Shown one piece after another: positions 9,098-32,313 of a stretch of 64,000 nt of DNA. This DNA comes from Thiomicrorhabdus xiamenensis (GTDB lineage: Bacteria; Pseudomonadota; Gammaproteobacteria; Thiomicrospirales; Thiomicrospiraceae), in NCBI RefSeq assembly GCF_013282625.1, contig NZ_CP054020.1, forward strand, positions 1,054,001 to 1,118,000. The letters are read 5' to 3'. Both the position numbers and the translations under genes were made by a program. The notes beneath the pieces are model-generated. The model worked only from the letters and a program-made list of their open reading frames with translations. It ran no database searches and was not told where the DNA came from. Positions within the stretch are counted from its first letter, which is position 1; every line of letters begins with the position of its first letter.

Positions 9098-9108
9098 CTC
9101 TATTTATG

Positions 9109-9774
9109 CTACTTAATACTGCCTTCGAGCAGGGCGCGGAAGCGGGGTAACAGATGTTCCAAAAACAGCTTTGTTATCGCTTGCGTGCTGAGATCAATTT
9201 CAATATCTTCCTCTATCAGGCGGATACGAATACCATCACCTGTATGGCTGCCGATTGTGACGCCTTCGCGGAGCATTTCCGCCGATACGGAGAGTACAAA
9301 ATGGCTTAAGGTTCCTTCCTGAACGTTTTCAGGGTGCAGGCGTAATTCTTTGAGGCCGACGACGTCGTCCGGCAGCAGTAACTCGAAGGCACCGGTTGTT
9401 TGCGTCGGACGGGCTTTGCCGGCGATTTCCAGAATTACTCTTTGCAGCAGATCCTCATCGCGCAGGTGATGGGATACCAAACCATGCACCTGCTCGCTGA
9501 ACTGGTGAGAGAGGGTTTCTTTGAGTTCCAGAATAGCATCGCGGGCGGCCAGATTCATGGCATCGCGTCCCGCTTTTTCCAATTGTTCCTTTTCGTGACG
9601 CGCCAGACTGATAATCTGTTCGGCTTCCTGTTTGGCGGCACTGATAATGTCATGGGCTTCTTTTTTGGCGTTATTGGTTATTTCTTCTGCTTGGTGACGA
9701 CCTTCTTCGATCCCTTTTTCCCGTAGACGATCTACCAGGTCCTGAACGCCGGAAGAGAGTTGTTCGTTAGACAT
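9109..9774 (-). CDS. ntpE: V-type ATP synthase subunit E (peripheral stalk)
   Basis: A 221-residue protein with a long charged coiled coil over roughly residues 5-110 (EEGRHQAEEITNNAKKEAHD and the following heptads) and a compact C-terminal domain ending in FLEHLLPRFRALLEG. This two-part architecture is that of V/A-ATPase E subunits, which form the peripheral stalk holding A3B3 against rotation. The partner G/H-type stalk subunit is not visible in this operon. The gene lies 19 bases after the proteolipid gene and 11 bases before DUF2764. Confidence 0.88.
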   Translation of the reverse strand: MSNEQLSSGVQDLVDRLREKGIEEGRHQAEEITNNAKKEAHDIISAAKQEAEQIISLARHEKEQLEKAGRDAMNLAARDAILELKETLSHQFSEQVHGLVSHHLRDEDLLQRVILEIAGKARPTQTTGAFELLLPDDVVGLKELRLHPENVQEGTLSHFVLSVSAEMLREGVTIGSHTGDGIRIRLIEEDIEIDLSTQAITKLFLEHLLPRFRALLEGSIK

Positions 9775-9793
9775 AGATTATCTCCTCTGGCGG

Positions 9794-10240
9794 CTAGGCT
9801 GGAATTCCGCCGCTGATAACCAGGGCGAAGATGAAGGCAAATACCGCAAAGCCTTCAACAATGGCAGCCGGTGCAATTGAGAGACCGAATACTTCCGGTT
9901 TGCTTTTACTGACATGAATCGCTGAAGCACAGGCATCCCCCTGACGCATACCGCTCCAGAGCAGAGCAAAACCGGACAGCACGCCTATCGCGAACAGGCC
10001 GGGGGCGTTGTCGATGGTTACCGCGCGTTCCAGAGTGAACATAATGACGATGCCGTAAATGGTCTGTGATGAAGGCATTGCTGATACACCAATAAATCGA
10101 CCATGCCCCGTTTCGGTATCCAGCAAGGCGCCACAGGCTGCCTGACCGGCACGGGCACAGCCGATAATACTGCCGATGGCACCTAAAGCCATCGGTGCAT
10201 AAATTCCAATCCAGCCTAAGGTGGTGATTAGCGCTTCCAT
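9794..10240 (-). CDS. ntpK: V-type ATP synthase subunit K (proteolipid, c ring)
   Basis: A 148-residue proteolipid with four hydrophobic helices, a duplicated hairpin of the NtpK type. Only the second hairpin carries the ion-binding carboxylate, Glu129 in AAIVEGFAVF. Residues that align by motif with Na+ ligands of Enterococcus hirae NtpK are present: Ser58-Gln59 in MPSSQTIYG and Gln100 in GMRQGDA. The ring therefore may couple Na+ rather than H+; this is an inference from motif positions. The 5' end overlaps the subunit I gene by 13 bases, which ties translation of rotor and stator channel together. Confidence 0.92.
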   Translation of the reverse strand: MEALITTLGWIGIYAPMALGAIGSIIGCARAGQAACGALLDTETGHGRFIGVSAMPSSQTIYGIVIMFTLERAVTIDNAPGLFAIGVLSGFALLWSGMRQGDACASAIHVSKSKPEVFGLSIAPAAIVEGFAVFAFIFALVISGGIPA

Positions 10241-11985
10241 TGTTTTACCTCGCGTTTAATAAAAGGTTGAAAAGGGTAGCCTTCGTCTTTCAGCCCCCAG
10301 TTAAAGAATTCGATGACGTTCAGGCGCAGTCCGTGAACCACGCCGCTCATAATGGCAAGAAGCAGGTTTAGGCCGTGCCCGAGAATGTAAATCAAAATGG
10401 CAAAGAATACGCCGATACCGGGCATGCTTTGCATGACATCGGAAGCCAGTTCATTGAAGGTGATCGCCAGCTGGGCACTTGCCAGCCCCAGCGCGAATAA
10501 GCGTAAGTAGCTCAATACGTCAGAAAAGGCTTGCGATACATTGGTTAGAGCCATCAGGCCGCCAAGGAGACGTTTCAAGGCGTTGTCGTTCGGACTGCTG
10601 AACCACAGGATCGTCAATCCGCCCAATCCCATTACAACGAATCCGCTGTTGCTTCCTTGCCAGACAATCAGGCCACCGACAAAAACCGCAATCCAGCCCA
10701 GATTCGCTTTGGCGCTTTCCCGATCGCGGTTCTGCCAAAACTGCATCGCATTAGCGAGAATCAGATGACTGACCCCCAGTAAAATGGAGACGGCCATCAT
10801 CTGGCTGTGGTCGTTCATATTCAATATGTGCAAATGATGCCAGAAGCTCTCTTCGGCCGGCGTGTGCCCGAAATAACTGCCAACCATGACGCCATAGCCG
10901 ATGGTTCCGGCGACGAGCGAAGCAAACAGATACTTAAAACGCGAGAATTTTCCCTTGGATAAAGGACGCCAATAGAGCAGTAGCATCAGGCCGAAAATCA
11001 GGCCGTAACCGGCATCGGCAATAATCATCGAGAAGAACAGGGTGAAGGAGACAAACAATATTCCTGACGGGTCCCATTGGGAATAAGCCGGGGTGGAGTA
11101 GAAGTTCACCATGTCTTCACCCGCCGAGAGTTTCTCGGCGTTTTTCATCAGTGTGGGCGGGCGATCTTTGATATCGGCCTCAATTTGGTGAACGGCCAGG
11201 CCTTTTTCTTTCGCCAACTTTGTCAGCGTTTCATATTGATCCACCGGTGCCCAACCCTGAACGATAAACACCTCGCCATCGACCTGGGTCATTTGCTCCG
11301 CCAGAGCCAGAGACGCTCTGTCGTCTGCGGCATCAATACGCTTGCCAAACAGGTCGATCCAGCGAGTGAGCCCGACTCTTTGCCAGAACTGCTCTTCGAG
11401 TTCGACTTCGCTGGCATCCAGGCGTTCTTGCAGTTCCGATAAGGGGACATTCCCGGTATGCGTTCGAGGTACCGGCATTTTAACGGGTTCGTCATCCGCA
11501 ATGAGGACGACATAGCTAAAGCGGTTGTCTTTAAAAACCACTTGCCAAGGCTCTTCTCTGGTTTCAATCTCGTCCATTTTGTAGTGCGGCACGATATAGA
11601 ACCAGAAACGGCGCTCTTCCAGTTCCTGATAGGGTTGTAAAACAAACTCGCCCCACGGCGACAACTCTTTGATGCGCTTGCGTAAAAATTCCTGCTCGTT
11701 TTCCAGATCATTGATGCGTTTTTTGATATCCAGAGTCAGGATTTGTACCTGATCGAAATCGAAGTTCTTTTCATCATGGTTCTGACGCAGTTTGGACGGA
11801 CAGCTGGTGAGGTAACGATAGGCTTCGCGGGCTTCTTTGGAGATAAACACCGGAATTTCACCCTGCAACTCTGGGTTCAGATCCAGCAGGTGCATACATC
11901 CCAGTTCCTGCAACTCTTCCAGTGCTTCCCGGCGTTGAGCCAAAGGGCCCATAAACGTGACTTTATTGAGGCGTACGATGGACAT
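10228..11985 (-). CDS. ntpI: V-type ATP synthase subunit I (a subunit)
   Basis: A 585-residue two-domain protein. A cytoplasmic N-terminal half with coiled-coil stretches (about 1-290) is followed by a C-terminal half with about seven membrane segments. The conserved channel arginine is visible in VHGLRLNVIEFF (Arg554), and AEKLSAGEDMVNFYSTPAYSQWDP precedes the first membrane helix as in other I/a subunits. It forms the ion half-channels against the K ring. It begins one base after the D stop and overlaps K at its 3' end. Length is close to that of chlamydial and spirochaetal NtpI. Confidence 0.92.
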   Translation of the reverse strand: MSIVRLNKVTFMGPLAQRREALEELQELGCMHLLDLNPELQGEIPVFISKEAREAYRYLTSCPSKLRQNHDEKNFDFDQVQILTLDIKKRINDLENEQEFLRKRIKELSPWGEFVLQPYQELEERRFWFYIVPHYKMDEIETREEPWQVVFKDNRFSYVVLIADDEPVKMPVPRTHTGNVPLSELQERLDASEVELEEQFWQRVGLTRWIDLFGKRIDAADDRASLALAEQMTQVDGEVFIVQGWAPVDQYETLTKLAKEKGLAVHQIEADIKDRPPTLMKNAEKLSAGEDMVNFYSTPAYSQWDPSGILFVSFTLFFSMIIADAGYGLIFGLMLLLYWRPLSKGKFSRFKYLFASLVAGTIGYGVMVGSYFGHTPAEESFWHHLHILNMNDHSQMMAVSILLGVSHLILANAMQFWQNRDRESAKANLGWIAVFVGGLIVWQGSNSGFVVMGLGGLTILWFSSPNDNALKRLLGGLMALTNVSQAFSDVLSYLRLFALGLASAQLAITFNELASDVMQSMPGIGVFFAILIYILGHGLNLLLAIMSGVVHGLRLNVIEFFNWGLKDEGYPFQPFIKREVKQWKR

Positions 11986-11986
11986 C

Positions 11987-12601
11987 TTAAGCGCCTCCAG
12001 TTGTCGAGCTTAAGGTTTTCTTTTTGGCGAACTTGGCGCGAATTACCGAAGCTCGATCCGAATCATCCAGAAAAATTTTGATTTTCCGTATATCGTCATT
12101 GGTCTCGGGAATCAGGCGTTTCTCAAACAAGTTAACCCGCTGCGTTATCTTGCGCACCGCTTCTTCCAGAATAGCCGTTCGCTTATGGCCTACAGCCGCT
12201 TTAGCGCGCAGGGTGGCCACTTCCTTGAGGGCTTCAACCAGAGCGTCCACCCAGTAGGGGTTGGCCAGCATGGAATAGCTTTCCAGTGCAAAGCGGGTGT
12301 CTACATATAACGGAAGGGTGACGCCCAGAAGGTTCTGCTCGGCTTCATCGATACCGGTGACCTTTACCAGACCGTTTACTTTAATGTCGGCATTGGCCAG
12401 TAATCCGATCCAGTCCTGCGCCTGTGTCAGATGCTCTTCAATTGCCTGCAGGTGGGCATCGGTTTCCGCCCGGGCTTTTTGTAATTCAAGCATTAACTGC
12501 TGGCGTTTTAAGTCCAGAGAGGGTAGATAGCGTTTGTACATTCCCAGCTTGTCGCGGGATTGCTTTAGAGCGGTTTTGTTTAAAGCAATTTTGGCCGCCA
12601 T
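11987..12601 (-). CDS. ntpD: V-type ATP synthase subunit D (central rotor)
   Basis: A 204-residue protein made largely of two long helices, with the family start (IALNKTALKQSRDKLGMYKRYLPSLDLKRQQL) and the C-terminal block KITQRVNLFEKRLIPETNDDIRKIKIFLDD that is highly typical of V/A-ATPase D subunits. It forms the central shaft inside the A3B3 hexamer. It is packed between B and I with two-base and one-base gaps. The partner subunit F, which binds D in most V-ATPases, is not encoded in the operon, as is also usual for chlamydial-type operons. Confidence 0.93.
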   Translation of the reverse strand: MAAKIALNKTALKQSRDKLGMYKRYLPSLDLKRQQLMLELQKARAETDAHLQAIEEHLTQAQDWIGLLANADIKVNGLVKVTGIDEAEQNLLGVTLPLYVDTRFALESYSMLANPYWVDALVEALKEVATLRAKAAVGHKRTAILEEAVRKITQRVNLFEKRLIPETNDDIRKIKIFLDDSDRASVIRAKFAKKKTLSSTTGGA

Positions 12602-12603
12602 AA

Positions 12604-13947
12604 TCAGCTCGCCTTGTCTTGTGTCTGCTCGTCATCGTCAGGGAAGTATTTATCGATCAGCGCTTCTTTCATCAGTAATTCGTCTCGAGAGAAGCATTGC
12701 GCCAATAGTTTCCAGCCAAGATCCAATGCGTTGTTTAACGGGAGGGATACGTCGATGTCCATAAAGTTTTCGGTAAACATGTCACCAAATTGCAGACAGC
12801 GTTCGTCAAAATCGGAAAGTTCAAAAGCCATGGCGCGCTTTTTCTCCGCTTCTTTGGCGTTCGAATAAAAGCGGATCATCGTGTTCATCAGCTGCGAGTG
12901 ATCTTCACGGGTTACCTTGCCGATCACCTGTTGCTTTAGGCGCGATAGAGAGCCGAAGGGGTCCAGCATGCCGTCGTGCAGATAAAACTGACCTTCGGTG
13001 ATATAACCGGTATTGTCCGGTACCGGGTGTGTCACGTCATTCCCCGGCATAGTGGTGACGGTCAGAATAGTGACGGAACCGGCCCCCTGATAATCGCAGG
13101 CGCGTTCATAACGCACCGCCAGTTGAGAATACAGATCGCCCAGATAGCCGCGGTTGGAAGGGACATATTCCATTGCAATCCCGATCTCTTTCATGGCATC
13201 GGCATAGGCGGTCATATCCGTCATCAGTACCAGAACCCGTTTACCTTCTTCGACGGCAAAGCGCTCGGCTACCTTCAGTGCCATATCCGGCACCAGCAAG
13301 CGTTCTACGATCGGGTCGGAAGCCAGATTGACAAACATAACGGTACGCGCGAATACGCCTTCGTCTTCAAATGTTTTGCGGAAATAGTGGTAGTCGTCGT
13401 AAATCAGACCCAGACCGCCAAACACTACGATATCCGCTTCTGCCTGAATACCGATACGAGCCAGCAAATGGTTGTAAGGTTCGCCGGCAATGGAAAAAAT
13501 CGGAATCTTCTGACTTTCCACCAAACTGTTGAACATATCAATCATCGGAATGTGGGTATGCACCATTTTGCTGGGAAGGACACGCTTGACCGGGTTTACC
13601 GTCGGGCCGCCAATATCGACTTGAGGATCGGCATCCAGAGAAGGCCCGCTGTCCAAGGAGGTTCCCGAACCGCCAAATACCCGACCAAGAATATTCGGGG
13701 AATAGGTCACCTGCATGGGGTGGCCGAGAAACTGTACCTGAGCCTTGGTCGACAGACCGCGGGCACCGGAGAAAACCTGCATGGAAACGACATCGCCTTC
13801 CAGACGTATCACCTGAGCTAAGGATTGCTCGCCATCGTGGTTCTCCACTATGGCCAAATCACCATAGGCGATATTGTCAGCTTTTACTTTAATGATATCG
13901 CCAATGATTTCGACCACTTGCGTATAGCGAGCCAGTTTGTTCAACAC
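12604..13947 (-). CDS. ntpB: V-type ATP synthase subunit B (regulatory)
   Basis: A roughly 447-residue non-catalytic B subunit. It has an N-terminal barrel (EIIGDIIKVKADNIAYGDLA), the degenerate P-loop region (PIFSIAGEPYNHLLARIG), VLMTDMTAYADAMKEI, and the typical SNRGYLGDLYSQLAVRYERA and GSVTILTVTTMPGNDVTHPVPDNTGYI blocks. I place the start at GTG 13947, or TTG 13944, because AAGGGG lies six to seven bases upstream and the family usually begins with a residue run like NKLARYT. A longer frame from a TTG at 13989 adds 14 non-conserved residues. It is the first gene of the operon. Confidence 0.93.
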   Translation of the reverse strand: MLNKLARYTQVVEIIGDIIKVKADNIAYGDLAIVENHDGEQSLAQVIRLEGDVVSMQVFSGARGLSTKAQVQFLGHPMQVTYSPNILGRVFGGSGTSLDSGPSLDADPQVDIGGPTVNPVKRVLPSKMVHTHIPMIDMFNSLVESQKIPIFSIAGEPYNHLLARIGIQAEADIVVFGGLGLIYDDYHYFRKTFEDEGVFARTVMFVNLASDPIVERLLVPDMALKVAERFAVEEGKRVLVLMTDMTAYADAMKEIGIAMEYVPSNRGYLGDLYSQLAVRYERACDYQGAGSVTILTVTTMPGNDVTHPVPDNTGYITEGQFYLHDGMLDPFGSLSRLKQQVIGKVTREDHSQLMNTMIRFYSNAKEAEKKRAMAFELSDFDERCLQFGDMFTENFMDIDVSLPLNNALDLGWKLLAQCFSRDELLMKEALIDKYFPDDDEQTQDKAS

Positions 13948-14285
13948 AGGTTTTCCCCTTTGAAAAACTAAGGAATTTATAGTTAACAATTTTTTTTATA
14001 TGGTGGCAAGACTTTTAATTGACTAAGTAGTTTTTCGAGTGAAAAAGGCAGGAAGGGGCTCTAAAAAGGATGTGAAAATTGTTATTGTTTGCTTAGCTCA
14101 AGGTGGGCAAGATTCCGCTTATGTTTGGTGTTTTTCCTAAAAGTTAGGCGTTGCGAAGCTAAGGGAGTCTAAAAATTGTTACGTAATGCCATTGCAGACA
14201 GTTTTTTTCAATTGTCTGAATGCGAGCGGATCAGAGCAGAGTGTATGGAATTACAGATTTATCGGTTAGAAGCAGGAAGGAAATA
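13948..14285. other. Noncoding region upstream of the V-ATPase operon
   Basis: About 340 bases without a convincing gene. It should hold the V-ATPase promoter, reading leftward. A TATAAA preceded by GTCAAT at 17 bases is present on the minus strand near 14000-14030 but is a weak match, so no promoter is claimed. A partial inverted repeat (CAGACA with TGTCTG) lies near 14193-14218. Confidence 0.4.
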
Positions 14286-14327
14286 AAAAAGCCCGAACGA
14301 TTCCTAATCAATCGTTCGGGCTTCAGA
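14286..14327 (-). terminator. Strong intrinsic terminator, apparently the displaced ssrA terminator
   Basis: Read on the minus strand, an approximately 14-bp stem (AAGCCCGAACGATT and its complement) closes a seven-base loop and is followed by TTTTTTATTT. It sits immediately beyond the left att repeat, exactly where the terminator of ssrA would have been before the island inserted. No minus-strand gene now ends close by except the island cargo gene at 14516. Confidence 0.85.
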
Positions 14328-14328
14328 A

Positions 14329-14343
14329 TTGGTGGAGCTGGGG
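14329..14343. repeat. Left attachment-site repeat (att core)
   Basis: TTGGTGGAGCTGGGG, identical over 15 bases to 26692-26706, where it is the 3' end of ssrA. After this the two sequences diverge. It marks the far end of the integrated element, next to the displaced terminator. Confidence 0.85.
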
Positions 14344-14392
14344 AAGGTACGGTATTACCTTTTTATGACGGATGTGGATTCTTGTTTTATTT

Positions 14393-14413
14393 TTACCCCT
14401 GAATTTACCCCTT
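14393..14413. repeat. Left integrase arm-type repeats
   Basis: Two tandem copies of the TTACCCCT motif, spaced 12 bases apart (14393 and 14405). The 17 bases at 14396-14412 are identical to 26551-26567 beside the integrase gene. Matching short repeats inside both ends of an element are typical arm-type binding sites of tyrosine integrases. Position and identity are observed; the binding role is inferred. Confidence 0.6.
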
Positions 14414-14515
14414 TTTTATTCATGTGTATTTCAATATGTCCTCATTTAAGCTGTTGCGTATAAGTACAGTATTTTTTCTTGATTTTATGCGGTTAATTAG
14501 AAAACTTATCTTGTT

Positions 14516-17500
14516 TCAGCCTGTTACATCAATCATTACAGTTTTCAATCTATGATTGTCAGTAGAGCTTTGTATCTTGGTTAACTCTTCCTCTAGTAAT
14601 TCTGCACTAGTTATAACAATGTCTTTTTGAGGGGGTTTGGGAATTCTGTATTTATTGGTATCTCCAAACCAGAACACCAAATAAATTCCATGTCCTTGTG
14701 ATTCAGGATGAATTGTATAGAGTCGATCTAGTTGGTTGTAGCAAGCAGTCCATAAGTCATTATGCTGCTGACGTTTTATTTCGATTGGTAGCTTCATGTC
14801 ACTACTTAGAATATTTATATCCGCTCTTTTATCATTGTGCATATGACCTTCGGGTTCTACACGAAGATTATGTGGGGTGTAGTAAGGCGTCATTAAGTCA
14901 ATAAGCCTATCTCGACAGCTTTCCTCAGCCTTAGGGCTAGTAATTCTTGAATAACGGTCTTCGTTCCAAAATGCTTTATATGTATCTGTACTTCCCCCCT
15001 TTAATTCAGCTTTAAGATTAATGAAAACATCAATTGTGAAAGCTAATAAATCTTGAATATTTTGAGGGCTTTTATTCTCAAGTACATTAATAGTTTCAGG
15101 AAGGGAGGGTTGTTTGAACTTGCTTTCAACTACATAAGATAAATGTTGAGTTAATGAATATTTAAGATAGTCTCCATAGCTCATGAGTTTTGATGCTTCA
15201 ATTAGTTGATTAAAAATATTTTCAATATTGGGATCAGTGTCGGACGCTAACTCTGAAATAACATCTCTACAGAATGAGCTTGCATCCCATGGGTTTTTGT
15301 CACCTGACCACCCACCTGTTGGGTGACTGACATTATCAAAAGATTCACCAACCAGATAGATAGCATATTTTTGTAGTTCAGAATTTTTTATTAATGATGG
15401 TATTTTGCTTCGTATATTTTTATATAGCTCTATGAATGCCCAGACATAAGCTTTACTTTTTCTAATATGTTTTCGAACACATGAAGGGGGTGATGGAAAA
15501 TCGAGAAAAATAAGCAATGAATACCATACTGGTCTTACATTTATATTTGCACTAAAGCTAACAAGAGAAGATAGTGCTAAATTAATTAAATCTTTTTTAG
15601 GTTCATAGTATTTAATGAGAAGTACAAGAATAGTGTTGATATCATGGATCGATAATTGGTTTTGATATTTTGATAAAAGACGAAAAATAGAGTGGATATT
15701 TTGGGAGATCAGGTTTTCCAGTGTTAAAAGTTCGCTAATGTAGAAAGTTTGAGGCTTATTATTTTGAAGCTGAGCCGTAATAATGTCATTGTAAACTTGA
15801 AATGTTAAATCTGGATTTTTCTCTAAAATGGCGTTATGCCAATCTTTTGGATGAAAACGAGATTCTGGATTCCCTCTGTATAGAATCGCAAGTGCTAAGA
15901 TGGTTTTAAGTTGCTCTTCTGGATAATCTGAAAAAGATTTTTTACTTTCCCAGTCTATATTTATGCTAGCCATAAAGCCATAAAACTGACTATGGAATCT
16001 ATTATTTCCAACTTCAGTAATTAGTTGGTTGTATACATAAACTGAATATTCTTTGAATAAGTTTGAAAAGCCTGTTATGGCTATATTTTGGTCAAATTGA
16101 CCATTTAAGTATGTCCTAAAAAAGAAATCTAAATCCGTAATGTCAGTGACCATTCCTCCATAAATTCGGCCTAAATAATTTAACCATTCTGAATGTCTTC
16201 CCAATCTAATTTCGTTCTGATGTAATTCAAAACTTTTAATATTTTCTTGTTTAGTTTCAAATTTTTTAGCTTCTGAATTAATTCTTCTTAAACTGTCTTT
16301 AAGTCTGTATTTAATTGAATCGAAAGTATATTTAATTCTAAGCTCTTCAATTCTTCTATTAGTGGTCGCTAGATCGCATAATGTTTCAAATTCTGCAAGA
16401 TAACATTTGTCACTGGTTGAAATTCCTAAAGCAGCTCGGTAATAAAATTCAAACACTGAAGAGTATGGATTCAAGTGCCCATGACGAAGCTTTGATAAAT
16501 AGTAGTCAAGTTTTAATACAGGTGGGAGGGAGTAATTAAAGTAGCCATCAAATGAATAATCAAATTCAACAAGAATGTCTCCGTTTTGTTTCCCCTCTAA
16601 TGAATTCATCCCTTTTGAGTATGTTGAGAAGAGCAAATCCACTTTGTCTTTTAAAAGGTTTAATAATGGTGAGTCATCATTTTCTCTTACATAAGCTCCC
16701 CCCCTAAGCTTAGCTAAAGCTCTAAACCAATATAAAAATTGTATTTCATTGAGGGGAGCAACTTTTTCTAGTCTTCTAGCTAAAAGCCTACTGTAAAACC
16801 TGTGCACCTCAAAATACTGGTGTCTATCGTAATCGTCTTTGATAGTAAATGGTAAGGATGAAATTAAGTTTAGGATTATATTCAGCTCATCATCTGAAAC
16901 TACCTCGTCCAAACAATAAAAATAACCGATTGTTTCATCATTGCAATGTTCAATATAGTCATTAACAGCGCCCACCAAGTCTTTTGGTTTAAATCCATAG
17001 TGGTAGTAGCGATTTAAGAATTCAATTCTTAATGTAATTGACGATGAATTTAGTCTGTTTTTTGAGAGTATTTGATAAATTTCTTGAGCTTTTTGGTAAT
17101 TACTTAAAGAAAGATGCATCGCGTTTATGGCAGACATTCTTTCAGGTGAGTTAACATTCGATATTACATTTCTTAAAGTTGGCTCAAGTTCAGGAAAAAA
17201 AGCACCTTCTTTTAAAACATCGTAAACGACTGATCTTAGGTGATGATTTTCTGAACTTTGTAAAATTTTTTCGAAGTCAACAACCAATTCTTGAGTTGAC
17301 AAGCCCTTTAAATAGGATGTCGACCAGTTATTCGCGCGAAAGTAGGGATTTTGTTTACTCAGCCCAGTTAACCCATTTAAAATTTCGCGTTTGGAATCGG
17401 TGTTTAGGCTTTTAGGGTCCCCATACATCAGAACACCCAAAGGGTCTGATTTTATAAGTTCTCTGTTATCAACAATAAATGTAGTTAGCCAAGCTACCAG

Positions 17501-18541
17501 TCCTCTGAGTTCAGTAGGAGTCTGTCCGTCTACTAAAATTAGCGATAAAACTCGGTTACGGGAAAGTTCTTTTTTATTTAATTTATCTGCTAACCATTTT
17601 CCAGCCAAAAATTCGGCAACTGTTCTATGAAAATATGTAAATAGATTAGGTAAAACTGATTTGAAGAGTTTTGTAGTGATTAAAGCTTGAAGAATACCCG
17701 TATCAAGTTCTCCAAGTTCAGTTAATGATGGGATATTTGGAACTGTGTTACCTTCTTGTATTTCAGCGTTTCCAGAAATAAGCATTAAAGCACACGCGTG
17801 CCCAGCTGCTTCAGTAAGAATATCAAAGGAAGGAAGAGAAACTGTATGTAATTTGTGGTGTTCACTATGCTCGTTTAATAGTTGTTGTGTGAACATAGAA
17901 TAGAGTTGGGTTTTACTTTCAGGCCAGCATCCTTTATCGGCTACAACGCTGTATAAAGTAATTAAACCTAGAGGGGTCTTTATGAATTCTTCAGAATCAT
18001 TCTCTTTACATTCATATGTGAACTCGGCAGCTTGAGTTGAGTTGATATTGAACTTATTAGTTAAAATTTCTACACATTCCTCTTCATTTAAATCCTGTAA
18101 GGAGGCAACAATGTAACTTCCTTTCTTTTCAAAGAAGCGCTTGAACTTTATTAAATCAGTATCCCCAAACCAATCTGCTGAACGACAAGAAATCCGAAAA
18201 CTGTTCAAATCTAGTGGAAGCACTTGAGATATCAAATTATGAAGTGCGCTTTGGTCCTTGTTCAGTCGGCTTCTGGTTTCATCCAAAGCATCTATATAGA
18301 GAATGCCTTCCTTAGGTAAGGTTGATGAGTATATTTGAAATTCAGATGCGGTAATTAATGATGCGCTTTCCTGTTTGGATAAGGATTCAAATGTATGGCT
18401 TTTGCCGGAGCCTGGTTCTCCTAGTAGTACGATACTTTCATATTTTAGGATTGACGAAATTGGAACAAACTTACCTTCATCATCTGTTACGGAAGAATTT
18501 TCAATTTTTACTAATCGGTTGATTTTTTTTGTTTGGTTCAT
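14516..18541 (-). CDS. NACHT-like STAND NTPase with C-terminal PD-(D/E)XK nuclease-like domain
   Basis: A 1341-residue protein. Residues 41-48 are Walker A (GEPGSGKS) and 80-88 Walker B (ILYIDALDE, with the paired acidic residues of NACHT proteins). SCRSADW follows at 118-124, and a TPLGLITLY motif near 189-197. FHRTVAEFLAGKWLADKL then matches the end of the NACHT helical region. A long helix-rich stretch (about 350-1180) without recognised repeats could be the sensor. The C terminus has RADI (Asp1241), 12 residues, then EIK (Glu1254, Lys1256) and NQL (Gln1270), the D...ExK arrangement of PD-(D/E)XK nucleases. The inferred role is a defence protein that senses infection and cuts DNA. It starts 11 bases after the DUF3293 stop, so the two are co-transcribed. 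Base composition is strongly A+T rich. A non-nuclease ExK fold cannot be excluded. Confidence 0.75.
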   Translation of the reverse strand: MNQTKKINRLVKIENSSVTDDEGKFVPISSILKYESIVLLGEPGSGKSHTFESLSKQESASLITASEFQIYSSTLPKEGILYIDALDETRSRLNKDQSALHNLISQVLPLDLNSFRISCRSADWFGDTDLIKFKRFFEKKGSYIVASLQDLNEEECVEILTNKFNINSTQAAEFTYECKENDSEEFIKTPLGLITLYSVVADKGCWPESKTQLYSMFTQQLLNEHSEHHKLHTVSLPSFDILTEAAGHACALMLISGNAEIQEGNTVPNIPSLTELGELDTGILQALITTKLFKSVLPNLFTYFHRTVAEFLAGKWLADKLNKKELSRNRVLSLILVDGQTPTELRGLVAWLTTFIVDNRELIKSDPLGVLMYGDPKSLNTDSKREILNGLTGLSKQNPYFRANNWSTSYLKGLSTQELVVDFEKILQSSENHHLRSVVYDVLKEGAFFPELEPTLRNVISNVNSPERMSAINAMHLSLSNYQKAQEIYQILSKNRLNSSSITLRIEFLNRYYHYGFKPKDLVGAVNDYIEHCNDETIGYFYCLDEVVSDDELNIILNLISSLPFTIKDDYDRHQYFEVHRFYSRLLARRLEKVAPLNEIQFLYWFRALAKLRGGAYVRENDDSPLLNLLKDKVDLLFSTYSKGMNSLEGKQNGDILVEFDYSFDGYFNYSLPPVLKLDYYLSKLRHGHLNPYSSVFEFYYRAALGISTSDKCYLAEFETLCDLATTNRRIEELRIKYTFDSIKYRLKDSLRRINSEAKKFETKQENIKSFELHQNEIRLGRHSEWLNYLGRIYGGMVTDITDLDFFFRTYLNGQFDQNIAITGFSNLFKEYSVYVYNQLITEVGNNRFHSQFYGFMASINIDWESKKSFSDYPEEQLKTILALAILYRGNPESRFHPKDWHNAILEKNPDLTFQVYNDIITAQLQNNKPQTFYISELLTLENLISQNIHSIFRLLSKYQNQLSIHDINTILVLLIKYYEPKKDLINLALSSLVSFSANINVRPVWYSLLIFLDFPSPPSCVRKHIRKSKAYVWAFIELYKNIRSKIPSLIKNSELQKYAIYLVGESFDNVSHPTGGWSGDKNPWDASSFCRDVISELASDTDPNIENIFNQLIEASKLMSYGDYLKYSLTQHLSYVVESKFKQPSLPETINVLENKSPQNIQDLLAFTIDVFINLKAELKGGSTDTYKAFWNEDRYSRITSPKAEESCRDRLIDLMTPYYTPHNLRVEPEGHMHNDKRADINILSSDMKLPIEIKRQQHNDLWTACYNQLDRLYTIHPESQGHGIYLVFWFGDTNKYRIPKPPQKDIVITSAELLEEELTKIQSSTDNHRLKTVMIDVTG

Positions 18542-18552
18542 TGCTTTTCAAT

Positions 18553-18945
18553 TTATGGATTGGATAATCGATCAAAGAAATTACTGACATAGACAAGCTC
18601 TTGATGTTCATCACAATAGGTTACGAATAGGTCTTCACCAGAAACAAAATAAATTGCATCCTGTTTGAACTCTAGACCAATATCACATGCTCGCTGCCAA
18701 TCCAGTTTTGCAACGAATCCTGCTTCGGAATGTCCAGTGTCAGGATCAAACCCATCTATTGCACCGACTAACACCCCCAAATCGGTCAATTCCGTTTTGA
18801 GTTTTGCATTCGCATTGATATTTTCTTGCTCTGTCCAAGTCTCACCAGTCGTCGCATAAGCTGTGATGATCGAAAAGCTTTCAGGAAAATCTGATTTTTT
18901 CAGCTCAGAGCGAAAATGGGTTTTTAAATAGATTTTGTTCATCAT
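18553..18945 (-). CDS. DUF3293 family protein
   Basis: A 130-residue soluble protein that fits DUF3293: SIITAYATTGETWTEQENINANAKL near the start, a GAIDGFDPDTGHSEAGF block in the middle and IGLEFKQDAIYFVSGEDLFVTYC at the end. No biochemical role is established for this family as far as I know. It is the first gene of a two-gene unit with the NACHT-like nuclease; the 11-base gap implies linked expression and possibly a shared function (regulator, adaptor or immunity). Two adjacent ATG codons (18945, 18942) are both possible starts and no strong ribosome site is evident. Confidence 0.7.
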   Translation of the reverse strand: MMNKIYLKTHFRSELKKSDFPESFSIITAYATTGETWTEQENINANAKLKTELTDLGVLVGAIDGFDPDTGHSEAGFVAKLDWQRACDIGLEFKQDAIYFVSGEDLFVTYCDEHQELVYVSNFFDRLSNP

Positions 18946-19092
18946 TCGAATATAATACGTTCTAACACACCGCTGGATTTAATTTTTTCAACTTGCCGGG
19001 CGGTATATAAATGTAGGCTAAAGCGACACAATCCTATAATTCCCAGATTGCTGCCTGCTTCACTTATCACTTGGGAATGATAGGAGTCAGCC

Positions 19093-19311
19093 ATGACTAT
19101 TCAAATCAAACAATCTCCAACCAATCTACCAGCACCTGAGTGCGATACCGTTCAGACGGCCTGTCGCTTTGATCCTGACTTCTACACCGAAGAAGGTCGA
19201 GCTAACTACATCAAGTACCACGGTAATGATCTAACTCCGCTAATGAAGCCAAGAATCGAAATGCAACTCGATGGTGCTGTGTTGAGTGTTTTTGTCGGTA
19301 AGGGATCGTAA
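19093..19311 (+). CDS. Small hypothetical protein of the island
   Basis: A 72-residue protein not recognised. It is acidic to neutral, has two cysteines (CDTVQTAC) and no membrane segment or signal peptide. An AGGAG ribosome site precedes the ATG at good spacing, and the next gene starts two bases after its stop. The pair therefore forms an operon diverging from the DUF3293/NACHT operon across a 147-base promoter region, which may allow joint control. Confidence 0.6.
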   Translation: MTIQIKQSPTNLPAPECDTVQTACRFDPDFYTEEGRANYIKYHGNDLTPLMKPRIEMQLDGAVLSVFVGKGS

Positions 19312-19313
19312 CA

Positions 19314-19892
19314 ATGTTCGATCTTATAAAATCTGAAAACATACTATACGATCAACTTATCATCTCGTATCAAGTTCATAACATCGTTGATTCGTTTCAA
19401 CACCAGCTATGGATTGTAAAAGATGATGGTATTACTGAAATTGAACTAATCAGCGAACTTCAAGAGCCAAGTCATGTCATGACGATCGATAAGGTTGCTA
19501 CGTTTGATTATGAAGGCTTTGCGAAGGATTTTATCAGTCGAGAAGATTTACGCGGCTGTTATGCTGATATTAGCGGAGTAGTGAGTGCTGAGCGTTGGAA
19601 TGAACTTGTAAAAGCACATACCGATGCTTTCAATAAACAGAGTGAAGCTTATGTCCAACGACAAGAAGCTAACCCATCTGAAATATATACGGTGGTGAAA
19701 GAGTTGGGGCTTCAACCATTCAACCCCGGATATAACGAATATTCTTGGTATGCGAACTGTCCTAGTGGCAAGCAACACAACATGATGTTCAGTACCAAAA
19801 GTAATGGCTGGGGGTGCGGTTACTGCAAAGTGAAAGGCGGGCCTGAAGAGTTAACTGGCTTTTATCATTACATGAATGAAGCCATACGTTGA
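19314..19892 (+). CDS. Hypothetical protein with CHC2-like zinc finger
   Basis: A 192-residue protein. The first 120 residues are not recognised. Near the C terminus, NCPSGKQHNMMF followed by GWGCGYCKVKGG places Cys, His, Cys, Cys in an order and spacing reminiscent of the zinc ribbon of bacterial DNA primases (CHC2 type), which reads CP-x-H-x-F-x-C-x-x-C-x-G. No primase catalytic domain is attached. A DNA- or RNA-binding role is a reasonable inference. It is coupled to the 72-residue gene upstream by a two-base gap. Confidence 0.6.
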   Translation: MFDLIKSENILYDQLIISYQVHNIVDSFQHQLWIVKDDGITEIELISELQEPSHVMTIDKVATFDYEGFAKDFISREDLRGCYADISGVVSAERWNELVKAHTDAFNKQSEAYVQRQEANPSEIYTVVKELGLQPFNPGYNEYSWYANCPSGKQHNMMFSTKSNGWGCGYCKVKGGPEELTGFYHYMNEAIR

Positions 19893-19948
19893 AAGACTCC
19901 TTGCATTTAGATACTAAATAATAGTCTTTTTTAAAAAGTGGGGTAATT

Positions 19949-20896
19949 ATGCGATATTTCATGATAAAAGTTTTTTTTGTGCTTTCTTCGTTCATTCTTG
20001 TGCCGGTTGCGGTATATGCAGACTATTCAGAAAGTTCATTTGTAGCCTTAGCACCAGATGAGGAATTATGCAAAGGAAGTAAGGGGCATTTCTTGCCTCT
20101 ACCCAGTATGGATAGCATAGAAGCGTCTTCTAAATACCTTCTTTCCGTGATTGATAAAAAGTTTGGAAGCAATTGCAAGTTTGACGGGCTTCTTTTAAAG
20201 GGGGAGATCACAGAAAATACGCTGTCCCAGTTAAAATTAGGCCTGCAAATACTTGAAAAACGTAAAAATGTAACCTCTATTCTCGGCGCTAATACATTGT
20301 GGCTAGACAGCCAAGGAGGAATTCTACTCGAAGCTATGAAAATAGGAGATCTTGTAGCTGAAAAAGGCATGAAGGCTATCGTTAAGATTAGGGGGAGTTG
20401 CTATAGCTCTTGTGTTTTTATCTACGCTGCTGCGAAAACACGTTCATCCCTTGGGGAAGTTGGAATACATAGACCATTCGCGGGCGAATTATCAACAGAA
20501 AACCTTACTTACGCAGAATACTTAAAGAAATATGAGTCACTGACTCCGATACTAAAACAGTATTTTTCAAAGTATGGCGTTTCTCCGATGCTTGTTGACT
20601 CAATGAATGTAGTATCCTCTGATGATATAAAAATACTATCTAATGATGAGCTCGAATCCTTTGGTCTTGGGTTTAAAAATGTCGCCGCAAAAGAATATGA
20701 GAAAGCAAGAACCATTCAGGTATGTGGCCAAGATTATTACGATATGCACCTTCGTTTTCATGGTTTAATCGAATCATGCAGAAAGCGTTTTGGTATAGGG
20801 GTATTAGATGAGAAAGATGAAGAGTGCTGGGGACTCGCACGTCAGGCATACCCAGATTATTCGGATAAGTTTAAAGAATGCAAAGCTAAACAATAG
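19949..20896 (+). CDS. Exported ClpP/crotonase-like serine protease homologue (COG3904-like)
   Basis: A 315-residue protein with a signal peptide (hydrophobic 6-22, cleavage predicted after AVYA, residue 24). The mature part carries the pattern of small periplasmic ClpP-fold proteins: LWLDSQGGILLEAMKIGDLV (about 117-136), the nucleophile block GSCYSSC (Ser153 or Ser154, between Cys151 and Cys155) and VGIHRP with His174. The C terminus is cysteine-containing and not recognised. Homologues are usually annotated as predicted periplasmic proteins without known substrates. It carries its own GGGG ribosome site and lies 56 bases after the zinc-finger gene. Its reason for being cargo on the island is unknown. 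Confidence 0.65.
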   Translation: MRYFMIKVFFVLSSFILVPVAVYADYSESSFVALAPDEELCKGSKGHFLPLPSMDSIEASSKYLLSVIDKKFGSNCKFDGLLLKGEITENTLSQLKLGLQILEKRKNVTSILGANTLWLDSQGGILLEAMKIGDLVAEKGMKAIVKIRGSCYSSCVFIYAAAKTRSSLGEVGIHRPFAGELSTENLTYAEYLKKYESLTPILKQYFSKYGVSPMLVDSMNVVSSDDIKILSNDELESFGLGFKNVAAKEYEKARTIQVCGQDYYDMHLRFHGLIESCRKRFGIGVLDEKDEECWGLARQAYPDYSDKFKECKAKQ

Positions 20897-20970
20897 CTCT
20901 GGCGTATAGTAAAAATATCACTATATACGGAGGTCCTTTCTCAAGGAAAGGACAAAATGCTTCAGGTTAT

Positions 20971-21294
20971 TCATAAAAAACTAATCTCGCTTTCGTGATC
21001 GAGTGCAGACTCATGCTCGATTACAAGGCCCTTCTTAGCCAATCTGTCGCGACCACGGTTGATGCGTTCGGACCACTCTTTGGCTGCAACAGTGTCAGTC
21101 ACCTCCATGCTAACGTGCTTCTGCTTAGGGTACATATAGGGCATGAGGAACTTGCTGATGGATTCTACCGTCAGATCGTCACCGCGTGCTTTAGCTTCGA
21201 CAGTGAGACGCGCCAGTTCTTCGAGTGGGTTGAGGTTGAACTGCTCCATAATCTCAACTGCTGATTTCACTGATTTTGGATTATCTAATTTCAT
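20971..21294 (-). CDS. Phage-like hypothetical protein
   Basis: A 107-residue soluble protein. The block NPLEELARLTVEAKARGDD followed by SKFLMPYMYPKQKHVSMEV resembles a motif (NPxEEL ... LxxYxYPKRKAV) often seen in small phage proteins annotated as terminase-small-subunit-like or of unknown function. This is a resemblance only. A GGAG site precedes the ATG. It lies just downstream of the repeat-rich stretch and the replication gene, on the same strand, and could be the last gene of the replication operon. Confidence 0.55.
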   Translation of the reverse strand: MKLDNPKSVKSAVEIMEQFNLNPLEELARLTVEAKARGDDLTVESISKFLMPYMYPKQKHVSMEVTDTVAAKEWSERINRGRDRLAKKGLVIEHESALDHESEISFL

Positions 21295-21344
21295 GTATAA
21301 ATCTCCGCTGTGTGCCTAAAATAATCATTAACCAACCTTGGGTT

Positions 21345-21540
21345 ATTAATTGAAAAACCGGCTGTTTCTATTTTGGTTTTTCAGTAAGGGGGTATCCCTC
21401 TCAGAATTAATAAACCTATAAAACCTAAAAGTAATAAGAAACCTGAAAAACCTCTCAAACCCAGTATCCATGGGCATCGATACCCCCAAGAATGGCTAAT
21501 GTCACCATTTTTGCAAATCCGGTTTTTCAGGTTTATCAAT
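21345..21540. repeat. Repeat-rich noncoding stretch, candidate replication origin
   Basis: Four copies of a TGAAAAACC motif occur in alternating orientation: 21351-21359 (+), 21375-21383 (-), 21444-21452 (+) and 21521-21529 (-). The last pair extends to a 14-bp inverted repeat (AAACCTGAAAAACC at 21439-21452 and its complement at 21521-21534). A second inverted pair, GGGGGTATC at 21388-21396 and GATACCCCC at 21479-21487, is nested within. The stretch lies directly beside the 3' end of the primase/ATPase gene. Repeats next to the replication gene suggest an iteron-type origin or an operator; neither is shown. Confidence 0.55.
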
Positions 21541-21558
21541 TTTCAGAGGGGGGAGTTG

Positions 21559-23730
21559 TCAAAGAAAGCTCACCTCTTCTACCGGTAGCAAAGAATAAAC
21601 ACTTGCATTGTCATCACTAGGAACAGACATCCACTGGTGCTTTTTGTTTCGATCAAACCCATCGTAGCGTTCCAATACTTCAATAACCTTTTTCTTTGAA
21701 GCATTGCAGTCTGCGGATTCCATACAGTTTTTATGAGCCATATTGATCAACTCAGTTTTTTTCATCTTCTTACCATTCCACAAGAGTTGGCTAATGACCA
21801 TCACTACATCTCGATCTTGTTCAAACTGTTCTTCAACCTTCGCTTTCCGTTTAACCTTATTCGCGGTTTCATCATCTAAACACTGAATCGAGTTAAAGAT
21901 ATCCATCCAGTCATCACCATCCTGTTTCGTATAGGTGTAACTCACTCGATCGGCAACGTCACCACGACTCTTGATGTTAATAAACTCAACTGTCTTAACC
22001 CCAGATTGGTTAGAGATTTCGCCCAGCACATAAACACAATCCACATCATCAACAACATCACTTGTGCCTTGGGGAATTAACTGTCCATCTGCTCCAAGAT
22101 GCTTGTTAGTATGAGCTAAGGCAATAAAGGTTCCGCCTGCACCAACGAACTCACGAATCAAGCTGGTGAAATTACTGGCTAACTTCTTATCCATCAAATC
22201 AACGGACTTCTTCAAGGTATCCAAAATAATCACTTGTCCTTTAGCATCGCAATCAGTAATTAGTCCTTGGATAATCGGTATTAAATCCTTGATCGTGAAG
22301 TTGTTCTCATTCGGTATCAGCATATGGAAACCATGCTTCTCCGCTAACTCAAGCTTGGTTGTTGCACCCTTGAAGGTGTCATCAGCGTTAATGTAGAAAA
22401 CATTCTCTCCATCGACTCTTCCATCCTCTATTGCATCGACGATGAAGCGTATCGCCGTTACTGTCTTACCTAAATTAGGTTTTGCATAGATGACAGTTGC
22501 TTGCCCTAGTATGGCTATACGATTGAATACATAAACATCATTCAACATCTGTTTTCTTCGCTGTTCTGACTTTCCTCTTGCTGACATCATCTTTAAACGC
22601 TCTTTTGCACTTAATGACGTATTGCCTGTTGTCTGTGCTGCCACATCACCGAACATAGCCTTTACATCAGGCTTATTCTGCTGTGCATACAGCTGCTGAT
22701 TATGTTGGTTAAGAGTTATTTCAACACCATCGCCCCCGAGAACGGTTAAGTTATCACCAGCAGCCTTTAACGCAGCTATACGGTCATCTTTATGTTCGTA
22801 GTGCACATACAGGTCAAACGCATCACCATAGACAACACCGTTCGTAGGCTCACTGCCAATACCAACATCGCTCTCATGACTCGATAGCCACTTTAGTCCA
22901 TCGTCATTGATTGTGACACCCGGAGTACCGCTTTCACTGTTAGGGCTGAGCCAGCGATTGCCTTTCTGCTTGTAACCATACTTATCAAGCAGATCTTCTA
23001 GGTCATAAGATTGGTTAAAGAAGTCCATAACATCCACTGCACCATTGGCAGCCTGTGCAATTCTCTCAATACGCTTGGCTTCACGCCGTTGCTTTGCTTC
23101 AGCTTTTCGTGCAGCTTCTACTTCCTTGATCTGAGTCACTTCGGCATCAAACACTGAAGCATTGAACAGTGGGCCATCAAGGATTTCATGATCGTAATAC
23201 TGCCCTCTGTTAGGCAGGTAGCAGATTTGATTCGCAGTCTCACTTTTACGATCCGGTATGATACCTACTGCTTCAAATCGATCATTGATTACTTGCTGGC
23301 AAAGCTCGAATTGTTCACCCCCAACCGGTACGGCTAATGGAACGATGGCACGCCACTTCTGCTTATCAGGTGTTGCGCTGGACGTAGTGTAGATAATAGC
23401 TTTGCATCCCAAAGACGTGATGGCGTTAAGTATCTGCTGTTTGGGAGTGTGTTCATCAATATCGACCCACAATGCACCGAAGTGTCCATGCTGACGTTGA
23501 TAATTAGCCGATCTTGCATGTTCATTGCATACGTTAGAGAAGATGGTCCACCGAGCATCAGATTTATTAACACTAGGAGGGTTAATAGTCATGGCTTCAA
23601 TATGCTGCCAAGTAACCGCTTCATATGGTCTTCTGGTTACCTTATCAGGGCTGTTGGTGTGATACTGACCATGCCCACTACAAAATGATTGCTGGGCAAA
23701 TGAATTATTGTTAGCACTTACCAACTCCAT
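21559..23730 (-). CDS. Primase-like and RecA/RepA-like replication protein
   Basis: A 723-residue protein. The N-terminal third looks like an archaeo-eukaryotic-type primase-polymerase: GALWVDIDEH with Asp90 and Asp92 as the metal-binding DxD, then IIYTTSSATPDKQKWRAIVPL (about 112-132). A charged helix (about 200-225) separates it from a RecA-like ATPase with Walker A AKPNLGKT (416-423) and Walker B VIILDTL (Asp504). ALAHTNK follows, then a winged-helix-like tail. This primase-ATPase combination is typical of replication proteins of satellites and plasmids. It would start replication of the excised element, perhaps at the repeats just downstream. Its 5' end overlaps the preceding gene by 13 bases. 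Confidence 0.75.
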   Translation of the reverse strand: MELVSANNNSFAQQSFCSGHGQYHTNSPDKVTRRPYEAVTWQHIEAMTINPPSVNKSDARWTIFSNVCNEHARSANYQRQHGHFGALWVDIDEHTPKQQILNAITSLGCKAIIYTTSSATPDKQKWRAIVPLAVPVGGEQFELCQQVINDRFEAVGIIPDRKSETANQICYLPNRGQYYDHEILDGPLFNASVFDAEVTQIKEVEAARKAEAKQRREAKRIERIAQAANGAVDVMDFFNQSYDLEDLLDKYGYKQKGNRWLSPNSESGTPGVTINDDGLKWLSSHESDVGIGSEPTNGVVYGDAFDLYVHYEHKDDRIAALKAAGDNLTVLGGDGVEITLNQHNQQLYAQQNKPDVKAMFGDVAAQTTGNTSLSAKERLKMMSARGKSEQRRKQMLNDVYVFNRIAILGQATVIYAKPNLGKTVTAIRFIVDAIEDGRVDGENVFYINADDTFKGATTKLELAEKHGFHMLIPNENNFTIKDLIPIIQGLITDCDAKGQVIILDTLKKSVDLMDKKLASNFTSLIREFVGAGGTFIALAHTNKHLGADGQLIPQGTSDVVDDVDCVYVLGEISNQSGVKTVEFINIKSRGDVADRVSYTYTKQDGDDWMDIFNSIQCLDDETANKVKRKAKVEEQFEQDRDVVMVISQLLWNGKKMKKTELINMAHKNCMESADCNASKKKVIEVLERYDGFDRNKKHQWMSVPSDDNASVYSLLPVEEVSFL

Positions 23731-24206
23731 TGAAATTTCCCTTTTGGAACCATCTCAACACCATGCTTAACGAGCAATGCACTCAATCTTGCTTCATATT
23801 CAAGTAAGTTCTGTCTATTGCGGTAAGGTGGACAACCATCGTTGTATAGATAGTAAGATGATCCATGTAGACCATTTCTGAAGCCTTGATGTCTAAAATC
23901 AGCATTTTCATAACTGATCTCGTTCAGTTTTAACCACGAATCGTGGAAATTGTCATAATCGACGCGCAAAGAATAATCACGAATACCGAGTGGTTTATAT
24001 TCGCGATTAACAACCAGAACAATGTCACCATGAATTGATAAACGATAAGGAAAAGTTCTTAGGTATTCACGTAAGACGGTTTTCATGCCATTACTGTAAT
24101 TCAGTTTTTTCTTATCAATACGTCTTAATGTCATAACATTATCAAGTAGCATTAAAAGTGCACTGCTTGCATTGGCTGGTCTGTTGTATTCCATTAGGCT
24201 GCTCAT
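23718..24206 (-). CDS. Hypothetical protein between AlpA and the replication gene
   Basis: A 162-residue basic protein rich in Tyr, Arg and Asn, not confidently recognised. The central part (DYDNFHDSWLKL, GLHGSSYYLYN) and position resemble inovirus- or satellite-type Gp2-like replication-associated proteins, but this is weak. It overlaps the AlpA-like gene as ATGA at the 5' end and the primase/ATPase gene by 13 bases at the 3' end, so all three are translationally coupled and probably act in the same step of element replication. Confidence 0.55.
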   Translation of the reverse strand: MSSLMEYNRPANASSALLMLLDNVMTLRRIDKKKLNYSNGMKTVLREYLRTFPYRLSIHGDIVLVVNREYKPLGIRDYSLRVDYDNFHDSWLKLNEISYENADFRHQGFRNGLHGSSYYLYNDGCPPYRNRQNLLEYEARLSALLVKHGVEMVPKGKFQWSW

Positions 24207-24424
24207 ACCGACATCTCCTTACGAGCATCGATCCAAGCTTGGACTTCTGCGATATTCCAGACGCTACACGACGGGCTTAATTTAATTGGTTTAGGGAAGC
24301 CTTCTGTCTTGATCCATCTATAGATCGTAGAATTATTGACACCGCCTAACATGGTCTTGCACATTGGACGGATTCGGATTAATTGGTTTTCAGGGGGCGT
24401 GAGTTTGTTAGAACGATTTATCAT
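24203..24424 (-). CDS. AlpA-family excisionase/regulator
   Basis: A 73-residue MerR-like winged-helix protein of the AlpA type: IRIRPMCKTMLGGVNNSTIYRWIKTEGFPKPIKLS followed by SVWNIAEVQAWIDAR, the pattern of prophage CP4-57 AlpA and P4 Vis. Such proteins bind next to att sites and promoters to promote excision and regulate element genes. I choose the ATG at 24424, with GAGG upstream, over a GTG at 24433. It heads the coupled replication operon, 104 bases after the preceding gene. Confidence 0.85.
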   Translation of the reverse strand: MINRSNKLTPPENQLIRIRPMCKTMLGGVNNSTIYRWIKTEGFPKPIKLSPSCSVWNIAEVQAWIDARKEMSV

Positions 24425-24528
24425 TTCTTGCACCTCATTGCTTTTGGGTTAAACAATCCGCATCGATTGCGGTTAAGTGCGAGATTACTGGAGGTGAAGG
24501 AGAGTGCTGGGGTGGAGGTTTTTCGTAA

Positions 24529-25239: not shown

Positions 25240-25241
25240 GA

Positions 25242-26477: not shown

Positions 26478-26490
26478 AGCCGCCACCTCA

Positions 26491-26568
26491 TCAGGGGTAA
26501 TTACAAATCAGGGGTAAATGAGAGTGTTGTATCAGGGGTAATTTGTTTTGCCCCTGAATTTACCCCTG
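26491..26568. repeat. Right integrase arm-type repeats
   Basis: Three direct copies of TCAGGGGTAA (26491-26500, 26508-26517, 26532-26541) are followed by the opposite-strand pair CCCCTGAATTTACCCCT at 26551-26567. That last block is identical to 14396-14412 at the other end of the element. The cluster overlaps the upstream region of int and could both bind integrase and regulate its promoter. Confidence 0.65.
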
Positions 26569-26655
26569 TTAATTATGCAATTAGATGATATTGGATGCAA
26601 CTAGGTAAAACAGGTGTGGTCGCTGTAAGGCTTGTTAATACGTTGTTTCAGGCAT

Positions 26656-26679
26656 AAAAAAAGCCCGTATGGAACGAGC
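26656..26679 (-). terminator. Replacement terminator downstream of ssrA
   Basis: On the minus strand GCTCGT, loop TCCAT, ACGGGC followed by a run of seven T forms a hairpin just inside the right end of the island, about 15 bases beyond the ssrA 3' end. It would replace the original terminator now at 14286-14327. Confidence 0.7.
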
Positions 26680-26691
26680 TGATATTGAATG

Positions 26692-28666: not shown

Positions 28667-28687
28667 TCAACAGCGCTTGTTGGCCAC

Positions 28688-28722: not shown

Positions 28723-28738
28723 GTGCAGTAGGGTGAGG

Positions 28739-32305: not shown

Positions 32306-32313
32306 GTATGTAA

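Follow-up and report, generated by a model that had tools for sequence, protein, structure and literature searches.

The locus described here, which lies in a 64,000-nucleotide stretch of the Thiomicrorhabdus xiamenensis genome (the window), is a real, intact and mobile EruA-like defence candidate. Its family has already been named and the operon is not a new one. With a probability of about 75%, the large protein encoded by the locus is a diverged EruA homologue which acts alone, as an NLR-like switch with a C-terminal effector. What was observed comprises homology, active residues retained among relatives, an N-terminal fold of NLR type in a predicted model and carriage by a mobile element. 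Judged from its sequence, the protein is a putative antiviral factor.

The large protein and the EruA family

An open reading frame check of the window revealed two frames on the minus strand. The larger one at 14516-18541 (-) codes for a protein of 1341 amino acids, which was annotated as an EruA-like NACHT NTPase with a C-terminal nuclease-type domain on the basis of profile, conservation and predicted model. The DUF3293 gene at 18553-18945 (-) codes for 130 amino acids and is located upstream of the EruA-like gene, with a gap of 11 bp. Thus, the two minus-strand genes 11 bases apart of the original prediction are both present, and the Walker A, Walker B, FHRTVAEFLA and D-x12-ExK motifs occupy the positions which it gave for them in the large protein. 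The G+C content is 32-38% in the five 1-kb intervals from 14000 to 18999, the stretch with both genes, 40-48% in the remainder of the island, 50-52% in the left flank (8000-13999) and 43-51% in the right flank (27000-33999). The chromosome left of the island, at 6658-13989 (-), resembles by its sequence what we take to be a V/A-type ATPase operon.

The system had been predicted to be undescribed. This does not hold, because the large protein is an almost full-length homologue of a named antiphage protein. In a scan of NCBIfam its residues 25-1340 matched positions 14-1318 of the 1318 positions of the profile NF058535, "NACHT domain-containing antiphage protein EruA", with 860.4 bits and an E-value of 3.4e-258. 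An undescribed protein family is ruled out by this match. The score is below the equivalog cut-off of the profile, which is 1000 bits. Therefore, we name the protein a diverged EruA-like homologue and not an EruA equivalog. The second NCBIfam match was HyoA (NF058534) with 110 bits versus a cut-off of 1200. In a tree of 40 rows the large protein was placed within 29 EruA-like rows (SH-aLRT 99). The remaining 11 are HyoA-like or outer rows, among which the HyoA scan covered L014 alone. The neighbours of the large protein (SH-aLRT 96) were homologues from a Bradyrhizobium plasmid (L040), which passes the NF058535 cut-off with 1035 bits, and from a Pantoea plasmid (L041), which stays below it with 776 bits. 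The exact placement is unsure because the tree was built by a quick method with a midpoint root and contains long branches. The rows above the EruA cut-off do not form one clade (6 label changes), so that the cut-off does not divide this tree cleanly.

The large protein is like EruA in its near end-to-end profile match, its length, its motifs at both ends and its grouping on the tree with a member above the cut-off. It differs in its score and in its distance from known sequences: overall identity to the compared homologues was at most 31%, the nearest relative found being that of a Methylobacter MAG (L179). Comparison with PADLOC gave three weak P-loop matches for the large protein, none of them to Avs and none assigning it to another PADLOC system. 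No publication on antiphage EruA or HyoA was found among the matches listed in a literature search. The EruA of PMC12839154 is, according to the accessible part of that article, a SlyA-family regulator and a different protein.

NACHT module, helical middle and C-terminal domain

The NACHT module comprises residues 1-470 (17132-18541, -) and contains the Walker A motif GEPGSGKS (residues 41-48), the Walker B motif ILYIDALDE (80-88) and FHRTVAEFLA (304-313). The conservation of these residues was followed in two alignments. The first consisted of 26 EruA-like rows including the window protein; L056 was left out for an internal stop, and L050, L054 and L058 lost N-terminal residues to the choice of start. 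Here G46 and K47 were kept in 24 of 26 rows, the other two showing gaps from start choice, and D84 and D87 in 25 of 26 with one gap. The second alignment contained 25 full-length loci, after 6 of 31 without an open frame of 1150-1600 amino acids had been dropped. G46, K47, D84, R120 and H305 were kept in all 25 of these homologues, which do not include the window protein and may overlap in species with the first alignment. Thus, the predicted NACHT-type Walker A and Walker B motifs with paired acidic residues are retained across homologues in both alignments and are no chance occurrence.

The large protein scored 15.5 bits with the Pfam NACHT profile, for which 26.7 are required, and other P-loop family profiles of Pfam likewise remained below their cut-offs. 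An AF2 model of residues 1-700, calculated from a four-row alignment (pLDDT 69.7, pTM 0.66; confidence better up to about residue 530), had NLRC4, NLRP-type proteins, NOD2 and NLRP3 as its best matches in the PDB (Foldseek best E 9.6e-7). The query-normalised TM-scores of the whole model to NLRs in Foldseek were low, 0.19-0.41 among the matches listed, with large rmsd values. VIA-align gave Z-scores of 20.6 for NLRC4 (residues 112-647; 371 residues aligned, rmsd 4.4), 18.9 for the NLRP3 NACHT domain and 18.7 for ADP-bound NOD2, with good agreement limited to residues 1 to about 470 of the model. Lower-ranked structural matches to helical-repeat proteins (Z about 9-10) were uninformative. Hence the NACHT-like NTPase expected at the N terminus is recovered as an NLR-type fold in the predicted model. 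Residue 1 of the model aligns opposite residue 112 of NLRC4, and the open frame has two residues only before the first Met. An N-terminal effector would have no space here because the alignment starts at residue 1, the Walker lysine is K47 and the frame is not extendable upstream.

The helix-rich region, the presumed sensor, spans residues 471-1190 (14972-17131, -). Its helical character, proposed from the sequence, agrees with a model of residues 600-1341, which is of low confidence (mean pLDDT 46.7). Modelling of the two ends, suggested earlier as a check, had a mixed outcome: the predicted model of the N-terminal part (1-700) resembled NLRs, whereas the model containing the C-terminal part (600-1341) was of low confidence.

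The C-terminal PD-(D/E)XK-type domain comprises residues 1191-1341 (14519-14971, -). In the first alignment, window protein included, D1241, E1254, K1256 and Q1270 were kept in 26 of 26 rows, and E1206, E1231, D1241, E1254, K1256, Q1270 and Y1275 were invariant in the 23 full-length rows. Among the 25 homologues of the second search, window protein not counted, six of these seven residues were kept throughout and E1231 in 22. The D-x12-ExK pattern (D1241, E1254, K1256) noticed in the single sequence is thus a property of all homologues in both alignments. The predicted elements of this domain, at a pLDDT below 60, are a helix (E1206), a strand, a second strand (D1241), a third strand (E1254), a helix (Q1270, Y1275) and a strand, and K1256 is located just after the end of the third strand. 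The PD-(D/E)XK core has the order alpha-beta-beta-beta-alpha-beta, which the predicted order of elements fits. A Pfam sequence scan detected no nuclease family in the domain (three unrelated weak matches), and of two PDB searches by sequence one yielded nothing and the other, with this domain, a single chance match to haemoglobin (E 0.87). We call the domain a putative nuclease because of the conservation of its residues and the predicted order of its elements.

The C-terminal position of the effector had been regarded as unusual. It is common to the EruA-like rows; as a novelty it does not stand, since the HyoA member L014 (1602 bits to HyoA), which the tree separates from the EruA-like rows, also carries N-terminal Walker motifs and a C-terminal D...ExK. 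Consequently, a C-terminal effector is not new among the named NACHT antiphage proteins. The accessible part of PMC12169576 describes bNACHT25 and bNACHT32, which share with the window protein a NACHT switch and a PD-(D/E)XK-type nuclease. Their nuclease is N-terminal and their C terminus is the sensor, whereas this order is reversed in the window protein. The DefensePredictor study (PMC13092281), as far as accessible, states that NACHT systems typically activate an N-terminal effector and reports 42 validated systems, named by number, some of which have NACHT or PD-(D/E)XK domains. The reversed order is a family trait and not specific for this locus, as it is common to the compared EruA-like rows and to L014 of HyoA. 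With Avs/AVAST proteins the window protein has in common that it is a large single-chain STAND NTPase, and its predicted structure weakly matches Avs4 (E 4.4e-4) and AVAST5 (Z 9.2). Avs effectors are N-terminal, whereas the window protein lacks the room for one. Animal NLRs (NLRC4, NOD2, NLRP3) are alike in the predicted fold of residues 1-470, with 13-16% identity in the best rows; the window protein differs from them in that an N-terminal death-fold domain would not fit and the nuclease-type site is C-terminal. The EruA-like architecture is constant, an inflammasome-like NACHT without room for an N-terminal effector being combined with an invariant C-terminal nuclease-type site.

The ssrA island and the distribution of EruA-like genes

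The locus is part of an integrated island at 14329-26691 in the 3' end of ssrA. The distal att repeat TTGGTGGAGCTGGGG is located at 14329-14343 and the proximal one, at the 3' end of ssrA, at 26692-26706; both were defined by the 15-bp repeat and by comparison with an empty site. The tmRNA gene at 26693-27049 is adjoined by the tyrosine integrase gene of the island at 25242-26486 (-) (PF00589, E 4.4e-27; PF13356, E 3.8e-25). Another genome of the genus (G192) has a 99% identical ssrA with an uninterrupted site, in which the left flank (to 14343) directly adjoins the right flank (from 26692), with an overlap of 15 bp. Since the flanks join there with an overlap at the repeat, the element has a size of 12,363 bp. 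The predicted mobile island is thus confirmed by an integrase beside ssrA, a 15-bp repeat at both ends and an empty site. Just inside both ends, at 14391-14415 and 26546-26570, there are two 92% identical copies of a 25-nt repeat built around CCCCTGAATTTACCCCT, which may represent the arm-binding sites of the integrase. DNA similar to the integrase end (67-72%) was found beside ssrA or an ssrA-like end in two further genomes of the genus (L122 in G388 and L133 in G381). As these carry such DNA there and the site in G192 (L105) is empty, ssrA seems to be used repeatedly for integration within the genus.

A primase/helicase-like protein is encoded at 21559-23730 (-) (phrog_9765, E 7.6e-9; phrog_256, E 2e-8). 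It consists of a primase-like N-terminal part and an AAA_25-like ATPase (E 6.2e-5, below the cut-off), which suggests that the element is self-replicating and satellite-like. Of the traits by which a phage satellite would be recognised, the island has an integrase, an att site and a primase-like gene; no packaging or hijack function was identified among the nine proteins scanned. The protein encoded at 19949-20896 (+) is weakly ClpP-like (CLP_protease 18.3 bits, below the cut-off of 20.2) and has by eye a signal-peptide-like N terminus. In a 192-amino-acid protein encoded at 19314-19892 (+), which had no Pfam match, cysteines and histidines cluster by eye close to the C terminus.

Counted at 800 bits or more, EruA-like matches occurred in 17 of 397 other genomes of a phylum sample, in 3 of 368 of a class sample and in 1 of 31 congeners (G385). 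The G385 copy (L035/L177) lies directly before tig-clpP-clpX-lon, in no evident island, and its position on a different EruA branch suggests separate acquisitions in the genus. By record title, relatives come from Methylobacter (nearest, 31%), Bosea, Pseudomonas, Methylomonas and Mesorhizobium, and MAG relatives are labelled Chloroflexi, Gemmatimonadota, Bacteroidota and Acidimicrobiales. Matches were found in 26 plasmid records, mostly partial by tblastn with 2 over 80% of the query, and also in one phage record and five IMG/VR contigs. A search of E. coli genomes with the DNA of L006 gave no match. On the Klebsiella pneumoniae plasmid NZ_CP098157.1 (L146) a partial, apparently interrupted EruA homologue is annotated as separate small genes. 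Thus, the named antiphage family EruA extends to about 20-30% identity and over chromosomes, plasmids, IMG/VR contigs and an ssrA island.

A copy on a Pantoea plasmid is located near genes annotated as anti-phage Ppl and Abi. For 10 of 20 loci the neighbouring proteins were compared by PADLOC with those of control regions taken from these genomes. At 1e-10, 92 families were matched among 80 neighbour proteins versus 16 among 80 control proteins, the counts being families and not distinct proteins. The best E-values among the neighbours were 3.8e-283 for HerA, 1.1e-170 for SIR2 and 4.6e-161 for PDC-S01, followed by a type II methyltransferase (7.7e-142) and PD-T7-4 (2e-78); the best control protein reached 8.8e-40. 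For these 10 loci the annotations are suggestive of defence neighbourhoods around EruA-like genes. The PADLOC counts, from 10 loci, speak for the enrichment in defence islands that had been proposed as a check; the G385 copy, which lies in no evident island, speaks against it.

The DUF3293 neighbour, proposed mechanism and alternatives

The product of 18553-18945 (-) is a DUF3293 protein (PF11697, E 6.5e-10, 39.9 bits versus a cut-off of 25). Of 41 other genomes or records in which an EruA-type match was found, none had DUF3293 beside it; fragments as well as HyoA-like or outer members are counted among these matches, and some of the contigs end near the gene (G525 less than 400 bases upstream). 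Where DUF3293 was present in these records, in 1 of 13 other genomes and 2 of 28 genomes or plasmid records, it was always on a different contig. Conversely, 32 of 339 class-sample genomes (31 besides the source genome) contain DUF3293, and the window's own is the single one of these 32 loci with an EruA homologue nearby (up to 1.5 kb on each side). The nearest relatives of the DUF3293 protein (L170 and L171) are 36% identical, and in G293 (L171) the gene is chromosomal and adjoins thioredoxin and SUF genes. No match to DUF3293 was found in plasmids and phages. A tblastn test with one DUF3293 sequence in the second search also spoke against a conserved operon but is insensitive, as the same sequence clearly recovered no more than 2 among the 31 further DUF3293 loci. 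A literature search found no function of DUF3293 in print.

Neighbour families within 4 kb recurred in at most 2 of 33 EruA loci, and most recurring pairs came from L085 and L102, which have near-identical neighbours; this survey used simple longest-frame gene calls, the sequence of several loci stops less than 4 kb from the gene, and L096 (wrong frame taken as EruA) and L087 (interrupted) are among the 33. At 26 of them no same-strand gene was found within 100 bp upstream. Without recurring neighbours and mostly without a close upstream gene, EruA-like genes behave as single-gene units. The operon with DUF3293 proposed for this locus is accordingly not upheld, the pairing being seen nowhere else from either side. 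A conserved two-gene operon is rejected for the lack of linkage in the relatives examined. The DUF3293 gene looks incidental, as a passenger or a local addition.

For the large protein we infer autoinhibition, a trigger, oligomerisation, nuclease activity on a substrate and an antiphage effect, which might be combined as follows. At rest, the ADP-bound NACHT module (1-470) would be autoinhibited and folded against the helical region (about 471-1190). The latter would sense a product of the phage or a disturbance which the phage causes, ADP would be exchanged for ATP in the NACHT module, and the modules would oligomerise. The C-terminal PD-(D/E)XK-type domains with D1241, E1254 and K1256 would thereby be brought together and cut DNA, and phage growth would be stopped or the infected cell killed. 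The EruA-like family is well suited to the clear structural question of how the signal of an NLR switch reaches an effector which lies at the opposite end of a chain longer than 1300 residues.

Alternatively, the protein could be an NTP-driven nuclease that recognises foreign DNA itself, in a restriction-like manner or as plasmid interference, and does not contain a protein-triggered NLR switch. This reading agrees with the combination of an NTPase and PD-(D/E)XK-type residues in a single chain, and also with the matches found in plasmids and IMG/VR contigs, for which keeping out rivals would be of advantage. We consider it unlikely, however, as the best structural matches of the N-terminal part are autoinhibited or ADP-bound NLRs. 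Somewhat more doubtful is a two-gene system in which DUF3293 serves the EruA-like protein as a local co-sensor, trigger adaptor or nuclease restrainer. Same strand, a gap of 11 bp, one island and a common AT-rich stretch would suit such a partnership, but the three of 41 EruA-type records that have DUF3293 carry it on different contigs, the window's locus is alone among the 32 DUF3293 loci in having an EruA homologue, and one of the nearest DUF3293 relatives lies beside thioredoxin and SUF genes. The gene might also be silent, decayed or differently used cargo without a role in defence in this host, in line with the score below the equivalog cut-off and with the fact that no compared homologue is more than 31% identical overall; the intact frame of 1341 amino acids and the retained conserved residues make this improbable. 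A more elaborate version of the partnership, to which we give an equally small chance, is that the satellite-like island assembled a two-gene EruA by recruiting a chromosomal DUF3293, which would restrain an NLR of reverse polarity, with its nuclease at the C terminus, or serve as its trigger adaptor. If true, the two-gene reading would give DUF3293 a function. The diverged EruA homologue acting alone is the reading we prefer over these alternatives.

Elsewhere in the same genome (L002; G000:C1:1554154-1554576) there is an open frame of 1336 amino acids whose match to NACHT is weak (20.3 bits versus a cut-off of 26.7).
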